Shown here in pieces: positions 5,367 to 63,751 of a stretch of DNA of 64,000 nucleotides. A program made the translations under genes and the position numbers. This DNA is from Pseudoalteromonas shioyasakiensis (GTDB lineage: Bacteria; Pseudomonadota; Gammaproteobacteria; Enterobacterales; Alteromonadaceae). How positions within the stretch are numbered: the stretch's first letter is position 1; each line of letters begins with the position of its first letter. Below the pieces are notes generated by a model that had not been told where the DNA came from, did not search any database, and worked only from the letters and a program-made list of their open reading frames with translations. The stretch covers positions 392,001 to 456,000 of the forward strand of contig NZ_CP077770.1 of the NCBI RefSeq assembly GCF_019134595.1, in the 5' to 3' direction.

Positions 5367-8300
5367 GTGTATAAAAATAAACTTACGCAAACTGCTTTAT
5401 GCGTTGCCGCTGCACTTGCCTCAACATCAACAATTGCTGCCAATAGTTGGTTATCTAGAGTCAGTACCGTCGATCAGCATCAGCAAAAGAAAGTATTTGC
5501 AGCTAACAGGATGCAAAGCCTTTCTGCTGTCAGTACTGATTCGTCAACTGCAATTTTTGATATAACAGTGTCGTTATACAATAATCCAGAAGGTGCAGAG
5601 CAGAGTGCCTATGAAGAAATTTTTAATAATTTCGCAGATGCTATTTGTGAGCAAACAAATGGTGAGCATAAGCTTGGCACAGTGAGTGTATTTAGAGAAA
5701 ATAAACATCGCTCAAAATCAGATATTATTTGGGGGGCAAGAGAATGGCCTAGAGCTAATGCGTCAGGTTTTGGTGCGAATGGCATGCATATTTGGTTTGG
5801 TGATGTTTTCCCGAACGGCGCAGGTGCTGGTAAAGACCATGATATGCTTCAAGATCCTCAAGGTGCTGGTTATACACTTGCTCATGAATGGGGACACTAT
5901 GCTTATGGCCTTTTTGACGAGTATCAGGGCGTAGCTGAAAGCGCAGATGCAAATAGCCCTATAAAAACAGATTTAGCCACAAACTCTATTATGAGTAATC
6001 AGTGGAAAGCTCTACAAGGTGATATGCTTTGGCTTAATCACTCTACAGCAACAAATATTGGCAATGTTGATAGAACAGCTCAAGGTCGAGTATACGGAAA
6101 AAGTGCTTGGGAAGTGCTATTACAAGATGCTAAAGATGATCCTAAGTTAGGAAGAAAAACGGCTCAACCAGAGCGTACTCGTTTTCTTACTCTGGCTAAC
6201 AATGCTCCAGATGATGTAACACCAGTAAAGATTGAACTACCTTCAGCTCAAGTATCATGCCGAGATCAGCTTGATGTAGTTTGGGTTGAAGGTGATATTG
6301 ATATGCAAGTGGTTATTGACCGTTCAGGTAGTATGGGCGGCGCGGCAATCAATAATGCCAAACAAGCAGCTAAAATACTTGTTGATGCTACAGCTGAAGG
6401 TACTACATCAATGGGGTTAGTTAGCTTCTCTAGCTACTATAGTGTGATACAAGATTATCCAGTAACTAAAATTGAAAGCCCAGATGTTTCAGTAAAAACT
6501 GAACTAAAAGCAGCAATTGATTCAATCAGAGCAGGAGGGTCAACAGCCCTTTACGATGGTTCACAATTAGCGCTTGATAACTTAGAACAATATCAACAAA
6601 CTCAAGCAAGCGGTGCCCCTGGTGTTGTTTTTGTCCTAGCTGACGGTGATGACAATCATTCTCGCTTGTCACAGGCTTCAGTAATCAGTAATTATCAACA
6701 AGCCAATATGCCAATTTTCAGTTTTGGCTATGGTAGTGCATCACCAACTGGCCCACTTCTCACTTTAGCTAATGCTACTGGTGGTAAGTACTTTTCTTCA
6801 CCAACATCATTGGCTGAAATTGTTGATGCTTTCTTGCAAGCTAATGCGATTGCGACAGATAATCAGAATCTTGCATCTACAACATACTCAATTGATAGTG
6901 CTCAAAGCGCCAGTCAGCCAATTTATGTTGATTCTGGGCTAGATAACATAAATGTTTTTGTAAATCACAATGCAGATCTTGCAGATCTTGAGTTAGCGCT
7001 ATTTGATGGTGCTGGTACACTCGTTACCGATATAGATTTCAACTGTATAGATACTGCTAGCACTCAATCATGTAGTGCTAATATTTCTAACCAGAAACTA
7101 TCTGCACATGGTGCAGGGCAGTGGCAGTTACAGTTAACGAATCTAAATCAAAGTACTAGCCTTACTGCTGCGGTAAATGTGAGTGCTGAACCAAGCTTAT
7201 CAGGTACATACTCTGTCAACGTTGAAGGAGTTGATGGGAACGCAGTTACTTATCCAGCCCCTATGATCCTGACTACGGCAATCACAAAAGATAAACTAAT
7301 TACAGGCGCTAATGTTAAGGCAACTATTACAGATCCAAACCAAGTTAAAAGCGAACTTGAAATGTTTGATAATGGTATTGGTGGAGATGCTGTTTCAGGG
7401 GACGGAATTTACTCAGTAATTGCACCTTATAATCAAAATGGTATTTATCAAGTTGAAGTGCATGTAGACAATAATGACAGCAATGCAGTGTACACCACAA
7501 CAGGGTTATTAACGCCAACTATTGATGGCTCAGTACCAGAAACTGAGACATTGCCAAGTATCGATGAGAATTTTGTTCGCATAGCTAAAACTTCACTAGT
7601 AGTCAGTGATGTCCCATACAGCGATAGTAATGACAGTTATTATCTGAGTGATGATCTTACTCCAAGTAATGCTGGAATCGAGGGGATGGTTGACTCTCAG
7701 GGAGACCTAGACTTTTATCAAATCGAAAACATTGATACGACAAGTGAGTTTGTTGTTCGTGTATCTGACTTAAGCTTGGGGATGAAACCTAGCCTTACAT
7801 TATATAAGTCAGATGGCATAACTGTAATTGATCAAGATATTACGTTAGATACAAACCCTTCTAAAACAGGCTATGTGTTCTATAAAGTTGCTACTACGGA
7901 CTTAGAGTCAACTCTCTACGCCGTAGTGCAGCATGAAGATACGACCGCAACTACTGGTGGATACCAAATTAGTGCGGGTGCTCCACTAAATACTGATACG
8001 CCTCCAAATAACGCACCTGTAGCAGCTGAAGATGTTGCATCAATTTGGTCAGGTCAAACAACAGTTATCAATGTTTTAGAAAATGATACAGATTTAGATG
8101 GTGATACTCTATCAATTGATAGTGTACAAAATAATGGAACCTTGGGTGTTGTAAGTTTAGTTGATGGTCAGATTACATACGATGCATCAACCGCGTTTGA
8201 TGATGAAGTTCCTGGAACAGTTATTTCCGATTCCTTTAAGTATATTGTGACTGATAATAATGGTGCATTTGTTGAGGGGCAGGTAACCATATCTGTATCT

Positions 8301-41176: not shown

Positions 41177-43912
41177 ATGGCTCAGATCCCTGAAAATCCA
41201 CTTATTCTTGTAGATGGTTCTTCTTATTTATTTCGTGCATACCATTCGCCACCGCACCTTACTAACTCAAAAGGTGAAGCGACAGGCGCAATCTATGGCG
41301 TAGTTAATATGCTTAAGAGTTTGATCAAGCAATATGATCCGTCGCACATGGTGGTGGTATTTGATGCCAAGGGTAAAACCTTCAGAAATGACATGTACAG
41401 TGAATACAAAGCGAATCGTCCGCCAATGCCTGATGACTTACGCACACAGATCGCACCACTACATAACATTATTAAAGCAATGGGGTTCCCGCTGATTAGT
41501 ATTGAAGGTGTTGAGGCTGACGATGTTATTGGTACGTTTGCGCGTATAGCGTCAGAGCAGCAGCGTCATGTACTGATTTCAACTGGCGATAAAGATATGG
41601 CTCAGCTTGTTAATGAACATGTTACGCTGATCAATACCATGACAGATAGCATTTCAGATCCAGAAACCGTGGTTGAGAAGTTTGGCGTTGGTCCTGAGTT
41701 GATCATTGATTACCTTGCTTTAATGGGTGACAAGGTCGATAACATCCCTGGTGTTGATGGCTGTGGTCCAAAAACAGCAGTGAAATGGTTACAAAAATAT
41801 GGATCATTGCAAGGTGTTATTGATCATGCAGGTGAAATTAAAGGCAAGATTGGTGAAAAACTTGCTGCAGCACTTGATCATCTGCCACTTAGCTATGAAT
41901 TAGCAACAATTAAGTGTGATGTTGAGGTTGAGTCAGATCTTGAAACCTTTAAGCTACAAGAGCCTAATCGTGACGAACTGATTGCACTTTATGGTGAGTG
42001 TGAGTTCCGTCGTTGGTTAGCTGAGCTACTTGATAACCCTAAAGACGCTGACACGCATTTAGATGTACCAACAGAAGCTAACGAACTACCAAAAGTTGCT
42101 GATGCGCACTACGAAACTATTTTAACTGAAGAGCAACTTGATACCTTAGTGGCGCAGTTAAATGATGCCGAATTGTTTGCTTTTGATACTGAAACAACCA
42201 GCCTTGATTATATGCAAGCGCAATTGGTTGGTATGAGCTTTGCGGTTAAAGCCGGTGAAGCGGCTTACCTTCCGGTTGCTCATGATTACCCAGATGCGCC
42301 AGAGCAATTAAGCTTAGAAACGGTAATGGCAAAAATTGGCCCAATCTTAGCTGACGAAAACAAAGCGAAAGTGGGGCAGAACTTAAAATACGATAAAAGC
42401 GTGTTAGCGAATGCAGGCTTTGAGTTAAAGGGTATTAAATACGACACTATGTTGGAGTCGTATGTATTTAATAGTGTAGGTAGCCGCCATGATATGGACT
42501 CACTGGCACTTAAATACCTAGGTCATAAAAATATCAGCTTTGAAGATATTGCCGGAAAAGGTAAAAAGCAGTTAACGTTTAACCAAATTGAGCTAGAAAA
42601 AGCGGCGCCTTATGCTGCAGAAGATGCCGATATAACGCTACGTCTTCACCAAGTGTTATGGCCAAAAATTGATGCCGATAGCCAGTTAAAGTCAGTATTC
42701 GAAGATATTGAGTTACCACTTGTCACTGTACTTTCTGATATTGAGCGTACTGGTGTTGCAATTGATAGCAACATGCTGGCAGCTCACAGCCAACGTTTAG
42801 GCGAACGCCTGTTAGAGCTTGAGCAGGAAGCTTATGATATTGCAGGTGAAAAATTTAACTTAGGCTCACCTAAGCAACTGCAAGCTATTTTGTTTGAAAA
42901 GCTTGAGCTGCCTGTTATCAAGAAAACACCTAAGGGTGCACCTTCGACGGCAGAAGAAGTATTGCAAGAACTTGCTCATGATTACCCATTACCAAAAGTG
43001 ATTATTGAGCACCGTGGTTTATCTAAACTTAAATCAACCTACACAGATAAACTTCCGCTGATGGTTAATGAGCGCACCAAGCGAGTGCATACCTCTTACC
43101 ATCAAGCTGTAACAGCAACAGGGCGTTTAAGTTCAACTGATCCTAACTTACAGAATATTCCAATTCGTTCAGAAGAAGGTCGTCGAATTCGTGAAGCCTT
43201 TATTGCTGCACCTGGCCATAAAATTGTGGCTGCAGATTACAGCCAAATTGAATTACGTATTATGGCGCATTTATCACAAGATAAAGGCCTACTAACTGCG
43301 TTTGCGAATGGTTTAGATGTACACAGTGCTACGGCGGCAGAAGTTTTCGGGGTTAGCCTTGAAGAGGTTACCAGCGATATGCGCCGTAAAGCTAAAGCAG
43401 TTAACTTTGGTTTAATTTATGGTATGTCGGCGTTTGGTTTATCACGTCAGTTAGATGTACCACGCCATGAAGCACAGCATTATATTGATAAATACTTTGA
43501 GCGTTTCCCTGGCGTACTTGAGTACATGGAAACAACCCGTGAAAAAGCAGCTGATAAAGGGTATGTAGAAACGATTTTTGGTCGTCGCTTACATTTACCA
43601 GAAATCAACGCCCGTAACGGCGCTCGTCGTAAAGCTGCTGAGCGTGCTGCTATCAACGCACCAATGCAAGGTACTGCTGCTGATATCATCAAAAAAGCGA
43701 TGCTAAAAGTTCACCAGTGGGTGAACGCGCAAGCAGAAGGTTCGGTGAAGCTACTAATGCAAGTACACGATGAATTAGTGTTCGAAATTAAAGAAGAATC
43801 TGTGGACGACTATAAAGCTGAAATCTGTAAGCTAATGTCAGAAGCCGCTACTCTTGATGTGCCTCTGATTGTTGAAGCCGACAGCGGTGACAACTGGCAA
43901 CAGGCTCACTAA
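41177..43912 (+). CDS. polA: DNA polymerase I
   Basis: Repair and Okazaki-fragment polymerase. I start at ATG 41177 ([22 protein letters not shown]), the family's N-terminus, giving 911 residues; the frame extends 20 codons upstream without homology. Domains: 5'-3' exonuclease (~1-300), 3'-5' exonuclease with [11 protein letters not shown] and later DEDD residues intact so proofreading is expected (~330-510), and polymerase with motif [10 protein letters not shown], motif [17 protein letters not shown] and motif [11 protein letters not shown]. An AGGA lies 12 bases upstream of the start. Downstream lie heptad repeats. Confidence 0.96.
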
Positions 43913-43926
43913 TAGTCTCGAAAAAA

Positions 43927-44110
43927 TGAAAGCTGTCAGCTATCAGCCGTCAGCTTTCAGATTAAAAGTTAGCGAGTTGCTTGACCGTTATACCGTGTTT
44001 TATCTCGAATCTAGTTTCTAATTTAAGGGTCGCGGCATAAAGCCGCTGCTACAGGTAGGCGCGAAACTTGTTTCGCGCGTCTGACCGCTGAAGGCTGAAA
44101 GCGATCGCTT
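43927..44110. repeat. Heptad repeats and palindromic element downstream of polA
   Basis: Just after polA, TGAAAGCTG (43927) and CAGCTTTCA (43951) form a hairpin around heptads AGCTGTC, AGCTATC, AGCCGTC, AGCTTTC. Further on, the palindrome TAGGCGCGAAACTTGTTTCGCGCG (44056-44079) is a variant of an element present three more times at 56063-56790. Same repeat family as 4135-4507 and 55888-55957. The rest of the 260-base gap shows no gene. Confidence 0.75.
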
Positions 44111-44172
44111 CTGTATATAGAACATCGCTTCGTGTGACCCGACTTACCCAAAAATAAATCATTACTCGTTAA

Positions 44173-45093
44173 CTATAACCCCAACTCCTGCAACCGCTTT
44201 ACGTGTTCGCGATAAAGCTCAATAGGGTCAACTTCCCGAAAATTGTGTAAACCAATAAACTGATTTATCTCATCTAAGTGGTTCATTTCATAATCATCTT
44301 TAATTACGTGACCTAAATGGCTGCTGCAGCGCGATACTAGGCCGTCATCTTTGCCTAAAATAAGTAACGAACCAAGCTGCATAGGCAAATCGGTTGGATC
44401 CAGTATATTGGTGAGTGCTGCTGTACCACTCCACGAAAAATAGTACACCCCATTTTTGGCAACTAGCTGGCCTTGCTCGCATTTATTTAACGGTAATCCT
44501 TCTGGGTATTTTTGATTAAATGCGTTCGCACCCTGTGTACTTAAGCTATTTAATGCACCCAGTGTGTTTTGTGGTAAATCACTGTTACCTGATAGTAGTG
44601 AAATAACACCACCAAATGCATCAAATACTAATCGAGCCGCATGTTCAGCTTGAGAGTTTGCTGGCAGTTTTTGACTAATTAGATCAATAATGCCACTGCC
44701 ATAGTTTGCACCACCAATACTGGTTACTGAGGCAATTAAATCTGGCCTGACTGAAGCAACATAGCGCACTGTTTGCGCACCTTGGCTATGGCCAATCAAG
44801 TTTACTTTTTTGGCGCCAGTCAGTGCTAAAATTGACTTTACTTTGGTGAGTAATTGTTCGCCCCGTACTTCAGAGCTATTAATAGCCGAGACCGCTGGCG
44901 TAAACACCAAAGTACCATCTTGGTTGAGACTTGCAGCCACATTATAAAAGTAATCGAGGCCAAGTAGGTTATCGAAACCCATTAGCCCATGAACTAAAAT
45001 GACCGGATATTGTGTCGTTGTTTTTTTGGCATGACAGTAGGGGGTCATTAAAAAAAGTAAGGTAGTAAATAAAATTAGGGGGATTTTTTTCAT
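44173..45093 (-). CDS. Triacylglycerol lipase (family I, Pseudomonas LipA-like)
   Basis: Secreted alpha/beta-hydrolase of about 306 residues. I begin at 45093 (MKKIPLILFTTLLFLMTPYCHA), a good signal peptide; a TTG frame 13 codons upstream is less likely. The oxyanion region YPVILVHGLMGFDN opens the mature protein, the nucleophile serine is in LIGHSQGAQT (~95 of mature), and the catalytic Asp and His are probable in KDDGLVSRCSSHLG and EMNHLDEIN. Two cysteines can form the disulphide of family I.1/I.2 lipases. A lipase-specific foldase gene is not adjacent. Confidence 0.88.
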   Translation of the reverse strand: MKKIPLILFTTLLFLMTPYCHAKKTTTQYPVILVHGLMGFDNLLGLDYFYNVAASLNQDGTLVFTPAVSAINSSEVRGEQLLTKVKSILALTGAKKVNLIGHSQGAQTVRYVASVRPDLIASVTSIGGANYGSGIIDLISQKLPANSQAEHAARLVFDAFGGVISLLSGNSDLPQNTLGALNSLSTQGANAFNQKYPEGLPLNKCEQGQLVAKNGVYYFSWSGTAALTNILDPTDLPMQLGSLLILGKDDGLVSRCSSHLGHVIKDDYEMNHLDEINQFIGLHNFREVDPIELYREHVKRLQELGL

Positions 45094-45317
45094 ACCTTTA
45101 TACTCTTCTACTGCAATTTTTATCACTAACAAGCCTTAAAAAAGCCTGATTTACGTGTGCTTTTAATTAACCTTACCCTAAATTATGGCTCGCTGTAATG
45201 TTAGTTTTAAGTAAACAAGAAAAGATAGTTTTAGTGTTTCGTTATATGTTTATCAATTTGTGTTGTTTCTGCGGTTATGCAATTTATTTTTAATCTGGTA
45301 TTTGCTAAAGTCCGCGC

Positions 45318-45434
45318 CGTCCTCATCCTGTAGGACATCCTGTTGATGATGCATCTGAAAGGATGCAACGTATTGATAGCTTCTCCCCAGTTTGCTATAA
45401 CGGCTCACTCCTTGTTGAGTGAGTCGCTTTTTCT
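45318..45434 (+). ncRNA. Candidate small RNA between polA and engB
   Basis: About 117 bases that fold as successive hairpins and end in an intrinsic terminator. GTCCT/AGGAC (45319/45332), GCATC/GATGC (45351/45362), ATAGC/GCTAT (45376/45394) enclosing a C-rich loop TTCTCCCCAG, then CTCACTC-CTTGTT-GAGTGAG (45404-45423) followed by CTTTTTCTTTCTT. An extended -10 TGCTAAAGT (45303) places the 5' end near 45318. The E. coli polA-engB interval encodes Spot 42, but this sequence does not resemble Spot 42, so the link is positional only. It could instead be a leader of the YceI gene, whose ATG is 83 bases downstream with a possible separate promoter. Confidence 0.55.
45404..45434 (+). terminator. Terminator of the candidate polA-engB small RNA
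   Basis: Seven-base stem CTCACTC/GAGTGAG extended by a G-T and a G-C pair, then CTTTTTCTTTCTT. The minus strand has no T-run, so it acts on plus-strand transcription. Confidence 0.8.
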
Positions 45435-45516
45435 TTCTTATCATACAATTCATTGCACAAATATACGCAAGTGATACCATCAAAGTGATTCTTATTTACT
45501 TTCGAAGGAATGCGTT

Positions 45517-46104
45517 ATGTTTAAATCTTTGGCAATTGCTGCCTTTTCATTATCGAGTATTTTAGTTGCCCCTTTAGCCAGCGCAAACTGGCAAGTTAAT
45601 AATGAGCAAAGCAACGTAAGCTTTGTGTCTATCAAAAAGAATTCAGTTGCTGAAGCGCATCATTTCAAAAACGTGTCGGGTACACTTAACGAGCAAGGTC
45701 AATTTAAGTTGATGATCGATCTGACATCGGTTGAAACACTGATCCCTATCCGTAATGAGCGTATGACTAAGTTGTTATTTGAAACAGCTAAATTTCCTAA
45801 TGCAGTGTTAACTGCTGACTTAAGCAAAGCGCTGTTAACTCTAAATCCAGGTCAACATGTGCTTAAAGGTCTGAAAGCTGAATTAGACTTTCATGGCAAC
45901 AAGAAAGAGCTAACGATTGATGTACTTGCTAATATGTCACCGAAAGGCGATGTTACTGTTTCATCGTTTGCGCCGGTGATTATTAATGCAAGTGACTTCA
46001 AAGTAACAGAAGGTATTAGTGAGTTACAAAAACTTGCAGGTTTACCATCAATTGCGACAGCTGTGCCTGTAACATTTTCTTTGACGCTAGATAAAGAAAA
46101 GTAA
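45517..46104 (+). CDS. YceI family periplasmic protein
   Basis: A 195-residue exported protein with a lipocalin-like YceI fold that binds isoprenoid or other hydrophobic molecules in characterised relatives. Signal peptide ends ASA; the mature protein starts NWQVNNEQSNVSFVSIKKNSVAEAH, the usual YceI first strands, with later VETLIPIRNERMTKLLFET and FHGNKKELTIDVLANMS segments. ATG follows GAAGGAAT. The stop codon overlaps the next gene start (TAATG), so it is in an operon with the DUF1285 gene. Confidence 0.9.
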   Translation: MFKSLAIAAFSLSSILVAPLASANWQVNNEQSNVSFVSIKKNSVAEAHHFKNVSGTLNEQGQFKLMIDLTSVETLIPIRNERMTKLLFETAKFPNAVLTADLSKALLTLNPGQHVLKGLKAELDFHGNKKELTIDVLANMSPKGDVTVSSFAPVIINASDFKVTEGISELQKLAGLPSIATAVPVTFSLTLDKEK

Positions 46105-46622
46105 TGCAATCACTTGCTGACTTAGAAGCCGCTCTTCAGGCACCCGATAAACCTTTTGATAAATGGCAGCCACAAAACTGTGGGCAAGTGCCTATATTGA
46201 TTGATGCACAAGGGCGGTGGTTTTATGCCGGCAGTGAAATAAAGCGCGAGGCAATGGTTAAACTCTTTGCCTCTGTGCTTTGCAAAGAAGCAGATAGTTA
46301 TTTTTTAAAAACACCAGTCGAGAAAATGGCCATCACAGTCGAAGATGTGCCTTTTATAATTGTTGATTGGCGTTTTGAAGATACAGAAGAAGGCCGTGCG
46401 CTTTGTTGCGTTGATAATTTACAGCGAGCATGGCTGGTATCAGCAAAGCAACCATTGGCATTATGTGAATTTGAAGGTGTCAGTGTGCCCTATTTACAAC
46501 TAGCACATGGCTTGGCTGCGAGGGTATCGAGAAATGTTTACTATCAGTGGGCTGAAATAGCCTGCTCAGACGAGCAGGGCTATTATATAGAATCATTAGC
46601 CAAGCGTTATTACCTGGCCTAA
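46104..46622 (+). CDS. DUF1285 domain protein
   Basis: A 172-residue cytoplasmic protein with the DUF1285 pattern: ILIDAQGRWFYAGSEIKREAMVKLFASVL, followed by SYFLKTPVEKMAITVEDVPFIIVDW. The family fold is known but its function is not. It overlaps the YceI gene by one base, and ends five bases from the convergent engB gene with no room for a strong terminator between them. Confidence 0.87.
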   Translation: MQSLADLEAALQAPDKPFDKWQPQNCGQVPILIDAQGRWFYAGSEIKREAMVKLFASVLCKEADSYFLKTPVEKMAITVEDVPFIIVDWRFEDTEEGRALCCVDNLQRAWLVSAKQPLALCEFEGVSVPYLQLAHGLAARVSRNVYYQWAEIACSDEQGYYIESLAKRYYLA

Positions 46623-46626
46623 GCGT

Positions 46627-47274
46627 TTAAGCTTCTGGTTGTTCTTCAGACTCAGGTGCTTGCGCTTCAATGGGTCCTAAAAACCATTCATCTAGCTTTT
46701 TAGCAACTTCAGGTAAGCCAGTGCCTTTTAATGAAGAAAAAGCGTGCACTGTAATATCACCGTCTAAGCTGCTTAACTCACGACGAACTTGTAAAACTTG
46801 TGCTTTACGCGCACCTTGTTTTAGTTTGTCGGCTTTAGTTAATAGTGCCAGCACTGGAATTTCGCTGCCCACCGCCCAATCGATTAAGTCACGGTCTAAA
46901 TCTTTTAACGGGTGGCGAATATCCATCAAAATAACGATACCTTTTAAGCTTTGACGCTTTTGTAAGTATTCACCTAGTGACTTTTGCCATTTCTTTTTCA
47001 TTTCGATAGGAACTTTAGCAAAACCATAGCCCGGTAAGTCGATAAGGCGTTTATCGGCATCAAGTTCAAAGGTATTGATCAGCTGAGTACGACCGGGTGT
47101 TTTAGAAGTACGCGCTAACTTTTGATCTGTTAACGTGTTTAAAGCACTTGATTTACCCGCATTAGAGCGACCAGCAAACGCGACTTCAATCCCCGTATCA
47201 GCAGGTAAGCGTGAGATATCAGGTGCGCTGGTAACAAAGGACGCAGTATTGTATTTGATACGAGATTTGAGCAC
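46627..47274 (-). CDS. engB: Ribosome biogenesis GTPase EngB (YihA/YsxC)
   Basis: Essential GTPase for 50S subunit assembly. 215 residues with G1 GRSNAGKSS (~36), the G2 region [10 protein letters not shown]3 DLPGYG (~80) and G4 TKADK (~146). The gene starts at GTG behind AGGAGAG. The C-terminal tail is acidic (ESEEQPEA). It lies between the candidate small RNA side and cytochrome c4; in E. coli engB is flanked by spf and csrC. Confidence 0.96.
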
Positions 47275-47557
47275 AGGCTCTCCTAGTCTTTTATAAAAAA
47301 TAACAAACAGTGGCTAATTTCCACTTAAGGCACGTATTTTATACTATTAAAGCAGCATTCAAAAGCGTATTTAAGCGTGCTAAATTGGCTTTAAATTAGG
47401 AAAATTACTAGATATAAACTTAATCTAAGTCAAATCCCTATAAATTATGAGCTTAATGTGGGCAGAAAACGTGCCAGAGAATTTATTATCGTGTAGAATA
47501 TAGAAATCACAACATCCATATTGTAGATGATACAGGGTCGGAAACAGAGAATTCACC

Positions 47558-48190
47558 ATGAAAAAAATAGCACTATCTTTAACTATATTGCTTGGTACGT
47601 TGTCAGCAAGCAACGCAACAGCATTTGATGGCGATGTAAACGCAGGTAAAGAGAAATCGGCAACGTGTGCGGCTTGTCACGGCCCAGACGGTAATGCACC
47701 GGTTAATATCTACCCTAAAATTGCAGGCCAACACGCAGATTATATCTATAAACAATTACAAGAGTTTAAATTAGGTATGACATCTGGCGGCAAAGAAGGT
47801 CGTATGGATCCAGTAATGAGTGGTATGGCTATGCCGCTTAGCGATCAAGACATGAAAGACCTAGCAGCTTACTTCTCTTCTTTAAATATGTCTGAAGGTA
47901 CAACACCTAAAGATGTAGTAGAAGTAGGTCAGCAGCTTTATAAAGCCGGTGATGCAGAGCGTGGTATTCCAGCATGTGCTGCGTGTCACGGTCCTCGTGG
48001 TAACGGTACATCACTAGCTAAATTCCCGAAAGTTTCGTTCCAACATCCAGAATACATCAAGTCACAACTTGAAAAATTCCGTGATGGTACGCGTAATAAC
48101 GACTTAAACGGTATGATGCAAGACATCGCTAAAAAGCTAACAGACAAAGACATCGAAGTACTTTCAAAATACTTAGGTGGCTTACACTAA
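47558..48190 (+). CDS. Dihaem cytochrome c4
   Basis: Periplasmic dihaem cytochrome (210 residues) that feeds electrons to terminal oxidases. Signal peptide ends ATA. Two homologous halves each hold a haem-attachment CAACHG motif (~38 and ~138) and methionine-containing axial ligand segments (MSGMAMPLSD; NGMMQDIAKKL). It is divergent from engB. A terminator follows. The same position, next to engB, is common in gammaproteobacteria. Confidence 0.94.
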   Translation: MKKIALSLTILLGTLSASNATAFDGDVNAGKEKSATCAACHGPDGNAPVNIYPKIAGQHADYIYKQLQEFKLGMTSGGKEGRMDPVMSGMAMPLSDQDMKDLAAYFSSLNMSEGTTPKDVVEVGQQLYKAGDAERGIPACAACHGPRGNGTSLAKFPKVSFQHPEYIKSQLEKFRDGTRNNDLNGMMQDIAKKLTDKDIEVLSKYLGGLH

Positions 48191-48238
48191 AGTCTGATTG
48201 CGGGTAGAAATACTCCGCAGTAATATGTGATTAGTGTG

Positions 48239-48267
48239 AAAAAAGCAGCGCAAGCTGCTTTTTTTGT
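48239..48267 (+). terminator. Terminator of cytochrome c4
   Basis: AAAAAAGCAGC-GCAA-GCTGCTTTTTTT, 49 bases after the stop codon. Confidence 0.9.
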
Positions 48268-48322
48268 ATTTAAACCATGTCGAAATCTCCCACGCCTTTG
48301 TGAGACATTGTCCATACCGAGC

Positions 48323-48340
48323 TGTAAGCTAAATCTTATT
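48323..48340 (+). promoter_or_regulatory. GacA/UvrY upstream activating element candidate
   Basis: TGTAAG-CTAAAT-CTTATT matches ten of twelve fixed positions of the GacA/UvrY box TGTAAG-N6-CTTACA. It lies about 140 bases upstream of the predicted start of the CsrC-like RNA, the usual distance for this class. Confidence 0.6.
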
Positions 48341-48462
48341 TTTATTTCAATTTTATACATAACCCTTTGTTATTAAATGGTTTGATCTTGTTGCAATATC
48401 TTATCTGTAAGAAAAATTATATAAATCAGTTGTAACAAAATTATTAATGAGTAAATTAACCA

Positions 48463-48780
48463 CTGTCGCTGAGACAGCAAAAACAACATGGACAATGTAA
48501 TAAGGAAAGTGACTGCGGCAAGTCTTTAGGGGTTGACACTGGTTAGGTGTCCTAAAGGAAATAACAAAAAAGCGTCAGGATTGACCGAGAATAATAAAAG
48601 CTCATGGAAGTTTAATAATAAAAACAAAATGGAATGCTACACGGAAGGTTAAAACAATAACAAAATGGATAAACAATAATAATAAAAATAATAAAGACTA
48701 AAAAGTCGAAGGGAGAAGTGTCCAGATAATTGGCGCTCAGATTAGTAGGCGGTAGAGATGTTTTCTCTACCGCCTTTTTA
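48463..48780 (+). ncRNA. csrC: CsrB/CsrC-family regulatory RNA (CsrA sponge)
   Basis: About 318 bases in the engB-yihI interval, exactly where E. coli encodes CsrC. No plus-strand coding frame. Nine GGA triplets occur (48490, 48504, 48557, 48578, 48606, 48631, 48643, 48667, 48712), several in hairpin loops: ACAT-GGACA-ATGT and GTCA-GGAT-TGAC. A larger hairpin CTTTAGG/CCTAAAG encloses GACAC/GTGTC. A 5' hairpin CTGTC-GCTGA-GACAG and the 48748-48779 terminator bound the molecule. TTGTAA / 16 bases / TAAATT upstream is a weak promoter. Such RNAs sequester CsrA under BarA-UvrY control. The sequence between motifs is AT-rich and unlike any specific CsrC I can recall, so the call rests on architecture plus synteny. 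Confidence 0.75.
48748..48779 (+). terminator. Terminator of the CsrC-like RNA
   Basis: An 11-base stem GGCGGTAGAGA/TCTCTACCGCC with loop TGTTT and a T-run. Confidence 0.93.
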
Positions 48781-48941
48781 TTTGTCCTGTTACAATAGCC
48801 ACCGTTTGTACTAAAAGTATGAAAAGTGCGCAGTTCGTCAAGTTGACCAACCACATCCGCACATCGAATTCTTCTGGTTATGCCAGCATTACAATGCCAC
48901 AAAGGCGTTGTGCACAACCTCTTAAGTGAGATGATCAAGAT

Positions 48942-49541
48942 ATGAGTAGAAAGAAAAAGTCGCGTAAAATTCCATCGAATGGTCCTGTACGTCTGAGCAA
49001 AGAAAAGCTTAGAGAGATGCGCGCGTTAAAAGAGCAGCGAGTTAAAAAGACCAAAGGTGCTAAACCTGGGTCTCGAAATGCACCTGATGCACAAAATGCA
49101 GAAAACACTGCTGCAAACAATCAACCGAAAGATAAGCGTGTTGGTAGTAAAAAGCCGGTTTCTTTAGTTGCGCCTAAGGCTGAGCCGAAAGTTGAAATGA
49201 AACGCAACTTAAAACCTATGGTTGAGCTTAAGAAAGTGACTGAGCCTGAACTAACACCAGAGCAAGAGTTAGAAGCGCTAGAGAATGACGAGCGTCTACT
49301 TAAGCTGGTTGAGCGTCATGAGCGCGGTGAGTTATTAACAGGTAAAGACGCTAAGTACTTCAATAGCCGTATTGCTCGCCACCAAGCACTGTGCGAGTTA
49401 TTAGGCATTGAAGATGAAGACGAGTACGAAGATGACTTTGAAGATGATTCAGTTGATGAAGGTGAATCTGACTTCGATAAGTACTTATCTGATGACTTAG
49501 CCAATGAATGGTTTGATGACGAAGATGAGGATGAGCGATGA
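48942..49541 (+). CDS. yihI: Der GTPase-activating protein YihI
   Basis: A 199-residue protein that in E. coli stimulates GTP hydrolysis by the ribosome-assembly GTPase Der. The N-terminus is very basic (MSRKKKSRKIPSNGPVRL), followed by a Lys/Ala-rich disordered part, a helical region with ELTPEQELEALENDERLLKLVERHERGE, and a strongly acidic C-terminus. This charge pattern and order match YihI. The stop overlaps the next ATG by four bases. Confidence 0.93.
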   Translation: MSRKKKSRKIPSNGPVRLSKEKLREMRALKEQRVKKTKGAKPGSRNAPDAQNAENTAANNQPKDKRVGSKKPVSLVAPKAEPKVEMKRNLKPMVELKKVTEPELTPEQELEALENDERLLKLVERHERGELLTGKDAKYFNSRIARHQALCELLGIEDEDEYEDDFEDDSVDEGESDFDKYLSDDLANEWFDDEDEDER

Positions 49542-51763: not shown

Positions 51764-51840
51764 GGCCCCTTAGCTCAGTTGGTTAGAGCACACGACTCAT
51801 AATCGTTAGGTCCCCAGTTCAAGTCTGGGAGGGGCCACCA
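51764..51840 (+). tRNA. tRNA-Ile2 (anticodon CAT, lysidine-modified)
   Basis: A 77-base cloverleaf with encoded CCA. Acceptor GGCCCCT pairs with AGGGGCC, D-arm AGCTCAGTTGGTTAGAGC, anticodon loop CTCATAA (anticodon CAT) and T-loop GTTCAAGTC. The acceptor stem and ACGACTCATAATCGT arm match E. coli Ile2 tRNA rather than elongator Met (which starts GGCTACG). The anticodon should become lysidine-modified by TilS to read AUA. Confidence 0.88.
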
Positions 51841-63440: not shown

Positions 63441-63509
63441 AGTGGCTGAGCTTGCAGCAATTTTTTAACTGGCGTACACTCAGGGCGTTTTAAAAGAAAC
63501 GAATTTATA

Positions 63510-63594
63510 CTTGTCGGAGTGCCTTTAATAAGGCTGAGATCGCGAAAGCGGGATCCGTGAACCTGATCAGGCTAACACCTGCGTAGGGAACAAG
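63510..63594 (+). promoter_or_regulatory. TPP (THI-box) riboswitch
   Basis: Classic thiamine pyrophosphate aptamer: P1 CTTGT (63510) pairs with ACAAG (63590); the P2/P3 side has CGGAGTGCC..GGCTGAGAT and GGATCCGTGAACCTGATC, and the conserved ACCTGCGTAGGGAACAAG closes it. It lies ~160 bases upstream of thiC. Binding of TPP should lower thiC expression; a downstream GGGCGC-TTGT-GCGCC hairpin (63605) may be part of the expression platform. Confidence 0.95.
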
Positions 63595-63751
63595 CTGCCT
63601 CACTGGGCGCTTGTGCGCCAAATTTATGGGGCATAAGCGGCACAGGCTGCACTAGTAAGCACTTAGCTTATTAACGATCCAATGGCGTTTGCCACTCTCT
63701 ATTGCACTTGCAATATCTGACAAGACAACCCTTAAAGCAATGAGGTAAGTC

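Follow-up and report, generated by a model that had tools for sequence, protein, structure and literature searches.

CsrC of E. coli and Pf3 of Pseudoalteromonas fuliginea are the described RNAs with which the present locus is best compared. In E. coli K-12, csrC stands in the order polA, spf, yihA (minus strand), csrC, yihI, hemN. Footprinting placed UvrY on TGTGAGACATTGCCGATA at E. coli csrC, and the counterpart sequence of Salmonella csrC is TGTGAGACATTGACCATT (PMC4682653; this paper and the others below are cited from parts of their text). In Pseudoalteromonas, Pf3 of P. fuliginea BSW20308 was reported in 2025 as an intergenic Csr RNA of chromosome 1 with nine GGA motifs; its promoter was active in promoter-GFP assays in E. 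coli, the RNA shifted with CsrA in EMSA and raised glycogen in E. coli as judged by glycogen staining, and matches to it were found in 470 of 672 Pseudoalteromonas genomes (PMC11882849). Pf3 also matched TAA/AAT-rich zebrafish sequence, and a eukaryotic homology of its AAT-rich part was considered (PMC11882849). CrcZ of Pseudomonas titrates Hfq, which is held through A-rich stretches at its distal face (PMC4063720).

Here we analyse an RNA gene in a 64,000-nucleotide stretch of Pseudoalteromonas shioyasakiensis (contig NZ_CP077770.1, positions 392,001 to 456,000), referred to as the window, whose own numbering is used throughout. The gene lies on the + strand at 48464..48783 and encodes an RNA of ~320 nt, with a predicted start and an end given by its terminator. 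Taken together, the observations are best explained if this RNA is the csrC of a Pseudoalteromonas, an orthologue of Pf3 and a UvrY-activated CsrA sponge, and we hold this reading as a whole to be very likely correct. The sequence, conservation, base pairing, gene order and csrC homology reported below were established by computation.

Genomic neighbourhood and distribution of the RNA gene

The window carries the order polA ... engB (minus strand), cytochrome c4, the RNA gene, yihI, a DUF2489-like gene and hemN (minus strand), where all gene names except yihI are ones that we presume from the protein sequences. The reading frame of engB/yihA, for a YihA-type GTP-binding protein, occupies 46627..47274 on the minus strand, and yihI, for the Der GTPase-activating protein, lies at 48942..49541 on the + strand and matches Pfam PF04220; these are the upstream and downstream flanks of csrC in E. 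coli. The original prediction that the engB to yihI interval corresponds to the csrC position of E. coli is borne out, and in both genomes polA and hemN lie to either side of it. One difference is that the E. coli interval lacks a cytochrome c4-like gene, whereas in the window the reading frame of such a dihaem protein (47558..48190, + strand) stands between engB and the RNA gene, directly 5' of the latter. A probable terminator of this cytochrome gene, suggested by sequence and conservation although missed by the terminator scan, lies at 48240..48266 (+ strand), 5' of the RNA promoter.

At the other end, the terminator that had been predicted for the RNA was found by the scan at 48747-48775 and, together with helix 4 of the consensus structure described below, defines a rho-independent terminator at 48747..48783 on the + strand. 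The RNA gene is thus intergenic with a rho-independent terminator, as the CsrB/CsrC sponge class requires.

The RNA was matched in all 108 Pseudoalteromonas species genomes searched, some of the matches covering only part of the query; one locus (L005) was removed from the species alignment as a copy of the window. In 105 of the 108 loci the cytochrome gene lies 5' of the RNA and shares its strand. Directly 3' of the RNA, yihI is present in 51 of 108, and in the other 57 it is absent from the ~780 nt examined from the 3' element on. L055 and L110 are examples of this second group, and all six of its loci that were inspected have a reading frame 3' of the RNA which we take to be methyltransferase-like. 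Two loci, L109 and L114, have cytochrome to yihI intervals of 1251 and 1063 nt, compared with the usual ~740. A search for YihI (PF04220) across the class was too sparse, with 3 of 274 genomes, and a search within the order was used instead; the plasmid collection gave no match.

Elsewhere in the window, Rfam identified a TPP riboswitch (63505-63606) and a tRNA gene (51764-51837). The neighbouring Spot 42 position had also been predicted to appear as an RNA gene, but Spot 42 was not among the two Rfam matches at E ≤ 5 over 43700-46700, a region covering the polA-engB gap at 43912-46627 up to engB.

GGA motifs

The RNA has nine GGA motifs on the + strand, as had been stated, beginning at 48490, 48504, 48557, 48578, 48606, 48631, 48643, 48667 and 48712. 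A count of nine in 343 nt does not by itself exceed chance expectation: mononucleotide shuffles average 6.5 and 915 of 5000 reach nine, as do 288 of 2000 dinucleotide shuffles of the same stretch. Because shuffles reach nine too often, we rejected the count as stand-alone evidence. The evidence beyond chance lies in conservation and not in number. In the 108-row alignment four of the sites are kept in every row, four in 94-98 rows and one in 54, so that eight of the nine occur in at least 94 rows, and the individual Pseudoalteromonas species have 8-11 GGA each.

In two other Csr-like loci of the same genome the counted stretch holds 26 (L001) and 22 (L002) GGA, numbers matched in 0 and 9 of 5000 shuffles, respectively. 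Shortly past the 3' end of its Csr RNA gene, L002 carries a tandem array with a 7-bp unit, GTTGCGA (1350-1465). Counts of GGA upstream of yihI across different families were noisy, since ORF calls within RNA genes masked some of the motifs (L194, for example, had 11 GGA in one count and one in the ORF-free interval), and we therefore relied on a covariance model search for comparisons at that distance.

Structure of the RNA

A consensus structure was derived from 36 of the 108 sequences, chosen for diversity. Its first helix, P1, pairs UGUCGC (48464..48469) with GCGGCA (48515..48520), both on the + strand; 99.1% of its cells are paired and two of its six pairs show two-sided changes. The second is a GGA hairpin, GUC-AGGAUU-GAC (48574..48585, + strand), with 97.2% of cells paired and no two-sided change, and the GGA in its loop (48578) is kept in 94 of the 108 species. 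The third is formed by the element AGUCGAAGGGAGARGUGUC (48704..48722, + strand), which contains the last GGA and whose final six bases pair with 48732-48737; all of its cells are paired, with one-sided changes only. Conservation of this element within the genus exceeds what a GGA site alone would need. The fourth helix is the terminator, with two-sided changes at five of ten pairs.

Over these four structures together 99.3% of the cells in the 36 sequences are paired, and two-sided changes occur at seven of 25 pairs, compared with a shuffle mean of 1.7 and with none of 500 shuffles reaching seven. All of these changes fall in P1 (two) and the terminator (five). Of the five covariation measures, the weaker one, further pair types, was reached by 13 of 500 shuffles. 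The fold computed for the window's copy of the RNA has a z of -3.07; the extra hairpins that appear when this sequence is folded alone are not conserved.

GGA-loop hairpins had been expected; the 36-sequence consensus has one conserved loop of this kind, that of 48578, while the last GGA (48712) abuts an invariant helix of two pairs and the other seven of the nine are unpaired. Most GGA lie outside hairpins in A-rich single strands, often as AUGGA or ACGGA.

Candidate UvrY site and putative promoter

An upstream box, TGTAAG-N6-CTTATT, had been proposed as the GacA/UvrY-type element of the RNA. This box is present (48323..48340, + strand), but the best candidate for the UvrY site appears to be a different sequence just outside the region first described, TGTGAGACATTGTCCATA at 48299..48316 on the + strand. 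The latter is of the csrC type, with two mismatches in 18 bases to the csrC site of E. coli and likewise two to that of Salmonella (sites from PMC4682653); when the interval was shuffled 2000 times by mononucleotides, the closest approach was three mismatches. Its centre is at about -156.5 from the predicted start of the RNA, compared with -159.5 from the annotated start for E. coli csrC.

Neither sequence is uniformly kept in the genus. Measured against the Salmonella site, the 108 species are distributed as 14 at one base, 27 at two and 66 at three to ten, with the stretch missing in one, so that a csrC-type site within 2/18 mismatches is present in 41 of 108 only. The second, UvrY-like box at 48323 is less well kept than 48299-48316: its left half, TGT[AG][AG]G, is found in 95 species and CTTATT in 51, with both halves in 45.

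No sigma-70 promoter was found on the + strand by the consensus scan. A putative promoter is nevertheless marked by conservation, with a -35 element TTGTAA at 48430..48435 (+ strand; columns at least 90% conserved in the 108 species, and absent from the consensus scan) and, after a 16-nt spacer, a -10 element TAAATT at 48452..48457 (+ strand; at least 90% conserved in the 108 species except for the third base). From the conserved TTGTAA and TANATT we infer a start of the RNA near 48464.

At the gene level, the expectation that this organism has a Csr/BarA-UvrY system proved right: CsrA, UvrY and BarA are all encoded in the genome, UvrY being 69% identical to that of E. coli and BarA 42% identical over nearly its full length. 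For the window RNA we infer both UvrY dependence and CsrA stoichiometry, and the following course of events would fit the observations as a whole. BarA would phosphorylate UvrY, which would then bind the csrC-type site at 48299-48316, perhaps aided by the box at 48323, and activate a promoter with its start near 48464. The ~320-nt transcript would stop at the terminator at 48747-48783, and its GGA sites, of which one lies in the loop of the conserved hairpin and the majority in unpaired A-rich stretches, would bind CsrA dimers and keep them away from mRNAs.

Probable identity with Pf3

The window RNA resembles Pf3 in having nine GGA, in its AAT-rich parts and in coming from the same genus (PMC11882849), and P. 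fuliginea KMM 216 carries the RNA of the window with exactly nine GGA. KMM 216 also has the printed GacA box of Pf1, letter for letter, at another place, beside a 420-nt stretch with 25 GGA; the window RNA is therefore not Pf1, and it is the P. fuliginea locus L285 that is Pf1 by its box. The window RNA is thus very probably the orthologue of Pf3, the connection being made through GGA count, AAT-rich sequence and species, and not through the locus tags D172_RS16040/16045. In the part of PMC11882849 consulted, Pf3 as published is not tied to the csrC or yihI locus, and neither there nor in our literature searches was a statement found that Pf3 is csrC.

Relation to E. coli csrC

We built a covariance model, R1, from 24 of the 108 Pseudoalteromonas sequences, picked for diversity, over the region 48566-48782, and ran it on 83 yihI-side loci from E. 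coli and other genera, counting loci at E ≤ 0.01 (the E-values are rough, as the calibrations were short). At this threshold 27 of the 83 loci were matched, and all 27 matches lie upstream of yihI on its strand. By family label these are 16 loci of f1, four of f176, three of f190, two of f187 and one each of f184 and f189. At E ≤ 1 there were 38 matches in 36 of the 83 loci, with none in the 15 loci of label f2. In five loci of one sister genus (L152, L153, L158, L160 and L173) the match lies several hundred nt 5' of yihI with an ORF between.

E. coli csrC itself is among the RNAs matched (27.7 bits, with E 0.0034 in a search of 264 kb); the match spans 6604-6780 of its locus L035, within the csrC annotation at 6537-6782. 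The match is modest and carried partly by the terminator, and only two of the 17 loci with the family label of E. coli (f187) reach E ≤ 0.01. As a control, R1 was run against E. coli csrB, L001, L002 and P. fuliginea Pf1, and none of these four RNAs was matched up to E 10; there were weak matches elsewhere in the four loci, one of them (E 0.066) on E. coli spf, mainly on its terminator. A family-wide search with R1 gave matches at E ≤ 0.01 in 102 of 147 genomes (five of them Pseudoalteromonas), representing 42 of 52 genera, and none in the other 45 genomes. This tally counts matches anywhere in a genome, irrespective of proximity to yihI, and is a lower bound, since its stricter filters missed genomes that were matched otherwise (G409 and G640, for example).

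An Infernal search with CsrB/CsrC models had been suggested as a check. No Rfam family reached its gathering score at the locus, and CsrB and CsrC were not among the ten Rfam matches at E ≤ 10 over 47200-49000. A whole-genome search with RF00018 had four matches at E ≤ 10, all short of the cut-off and away from the locus, the best two being GGA-rich RNAs elsewhere.

The RNA thus shares with E. coli CsrC its neighbourhood, the type of its UvrY site, the approximate distance of that site and a match to R1, and differs in that CsrC has 14 GGA and no AAN runs and is otherwise diverged in sequence. E. coli CsrB and Pf1/Pf2 are multi-GGA sponges like the window RNA, and two such loci exist elsewhere in the same genome (L001 and L002); unlike the window RNA, however, these two have no AAN runs and much higher GGA counts, and like csrB and Pf1 they are left unmatched by R1. 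In Vibrio, Csr RNAs have relocated by duplication (PMC6262261), and it is conceivable that a Csr sponge arrived at this locus independently, with no descent from a csrC ancestor. The low overall similarity to csrC, the silence of the Rfam CsrC model and the presence of yihI directly next to the RNA in only 51 of the 108 Pseudoalteromonas loci would all agree with such an arrival. Against it stand the confinement of the R1 matches to the upstream side of yihI, on its strand and in six family labels, the csrC type of the UvrY site, and the fact that R1 matches csrC and not csrB, and on balance we regard independent arrival as unlikely. Gene order in the window, the csrC-type UvrY site with its distance from the predicted start, and the R1 match to csrC and not to csrB all support the designation as CsrC-like and as lying at the CsrC locus, and the RNA is homologous to csrC.

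Phased AAN triplets

Between its GGA motifs the RNA carries six tracts of AAN triplets on the + strand: (AAN)3 at 48479..48487, immediately 5' of the AUGGA at 48488; (AAN)4 at 48560..48571; (AAN)3 at 48590..48598; (AAN)5 at 48614..48628 and (AAN)4 at 48653..48664, both of which run into AUGGA; and (AAN)8 at 48672..48695. In total, 27 AAN units lie in runs of at least three, compared with a mean of 5.9 in dinucleotide shuffles, none of 2000 of which reaches 27, and, of 2548 segments of 343 nt taken from the two strands of the window, those away from the RNA have at most ten. The count ranges from 13 to 30 units per species in 106 of the 108 (two species with long inserts were left out), and in 98 of these 106 it is above all 200 shuffles.

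The triplets are conserved in phase. Over the tracts the A site is A at a frequency of 0.93 and the R site at 0.93, with G at 0.006, while the N site varies (A 0.34, T 0.43, C 0.18, G 0.05). When only columns with A in the window are compared, a restriction which removes most of the choice bias, conservation by phase is 0.923 (54 columns) versus 0.679 (nine columns), with p 3e-4; the direction is the same when five other species serve as reference (p 7e-5 to 0.006). These p-values are guides only, because the rows are related by descent.

Beyond the genus, an AAN excess (reached by at most ten of 500 shuffles) is present in 18 of the 27 R1 loci, namely 12/16 of f1, 2/4 of f176, 1/1 of f184, 2/3 of f190, 1/1 of f189 and 0/2 of f187, a count that leans towards AAN because R1 itself includes A-rich columns. 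The nine loci without excess include both f187 loci, E. coli csrC among them. A separate test at a fixed distance from yihI covered 12 of the 19 loci of f1 and f185, of which seven had their count reached by 0-9 of 1000 shuffles, one by 21 and four by at least 70; the other seven loci were covered through their R1 matches, except L177, which has none. Across the 27 loci AAN and GGA counts are inversely related (Spearman -0.67), but within f1 alone the relation is weak (-0.38, p 0.14). Several R1 loci of sister genera have 3-6 GGA and 8-21 AAN units in the counted stretch. In L152, L153, L158, L160, L164 and L169 only 3-5 GGA remain beside 8-21 AAN, as if the Csr part were fading and the triplets kept.

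What the triplets may do

Two explanations of the AAN tracts can be largely set aside. The tracts might be codons of a small gene, AAN reading as Asn or Lys, and five of the six do fall in one frame, which in the window is open from a TTG at 48533 to a TAA at 48650-48652. This frame (48533-48649) is open in only nine of the 108 species, the window included, eight of them having a start codon there, and in many columns the third base varies so that Lys and Asn codons interchange; we rejected the coding reading on these two grounds and consider it very improbable. Even less credible, in our view, is that the AAT-rich stretches are microsatellites or kin of eukaryotic repeats, the explanation considered in the discussion of Pf3 (PMC11882849, in part). 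Unlike slippage arrays, the tracts keep their positions genus-wide with mixed N bases, and a covariance model that includes them finds matches in 42 of the 52 genera of a bacterial family. The AAT-rich part of the RNA is a bacterial triplet pattern under selection, and the AAN tracts are probably what lies behind the published zebrafish 'homologs' of Pf3 (PMC11882849, in part).

Two further explanations are closer to the function of the RNA. The tracts may serve only to hold the GGA sites single-stranded and accessible, or may be an entry site for RNase E-type decay, which we think quite possible if somewhat short of probable; they are unpaired in the consensus structure and several run directly into A[U/C]GGA, although accessibility alone does not explain a phase in which every third base varies freely and the other two are almost invariant. 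Alternatively, the RNA could be a decoy for two proteins, its GGA sites holding CsrA and its (AAN)n tracts holding Hfq by the distal face in the manner of CrcZ, a possibility that we put forward tentatively. Phased A-rich triplets of this kind fit the distal face of Hfq, whose motif is the ARN triplet (PMC9890229, PMC4063720). Hfq is also encoded in the genome (G000:C1:3456865-3457050), the excess and conserved phase of the AAN units are as this reading would have it, as is the AAN excess in 18 of the R1 loci, several of them down to 3-6 GGA, and Rfam shows a weak likeness to CrcZ (E 0.0096). There are several points on the other side. The distal-face residues of Hfq, as we presume them to be, are all kept in the Hfq of this genome except for one, Y25 of E. 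coli Hfq, which is F here. The CrcZ match scores 19.8 bits where the gathering score is 95, a third of the R1 loci, including both f187 loci and with them E. coli csrC, are without AAN excess, the count over the 27 loci is biased by the A-rich columns of the model, and the other two Csr loci of the genome have no AAN runs. Moreover, the R site is nearly always A and seldom G, so that Hfq is not the sole reader that fits. In comparison with Pseudomonas CrcZ, the window RNA likewise has several A-rich stretches, but in GGA content, locus and UvrY site it is a Csr-type RNA, and its score is far below the Rfam CrcZ threshold.

In its broader form the proposal, which we again regard as possible but not as the likelier outcome, is that Pf3/CsrC of Pseudoalteromonas and sister genera is a two-protein sponge whose phase-conserved (AAN)n linkers load Hfq hexamers by the distal face. 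In sister genera with few GGA the RNA may even be mainly an Hfq decoy. No statement of a Csr RNA bearing Hfq triplets was found in our literature searches.

Significance

The RNA itself has very probably already been published for the genus, as Pf3. What is new, so far as our literature searches show, is its orthology to csrC, the better placement of its UvrY site, and the pattern of triplets together with the Hfq prediction that follows from it. Pf3, for which few bacterial matches outside the genus had been reported, looks like csrC and can be tied to that of E. coli by locus, UvrY site and sequence. Were the two-protein sponge to prove true, induction by UvrY would free the targets of CsrA and of Hfq together, and a single UvrY-controlled RNA would join the Csr and Hfq networks as a CsrC-CrcZ hybrid arisen in the old csrC locus. 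The triplet pattern predicts Hfq binding, and this, if true, would reveal a route by which the networks of CsrA and Hfq are connected in marine bacteria.
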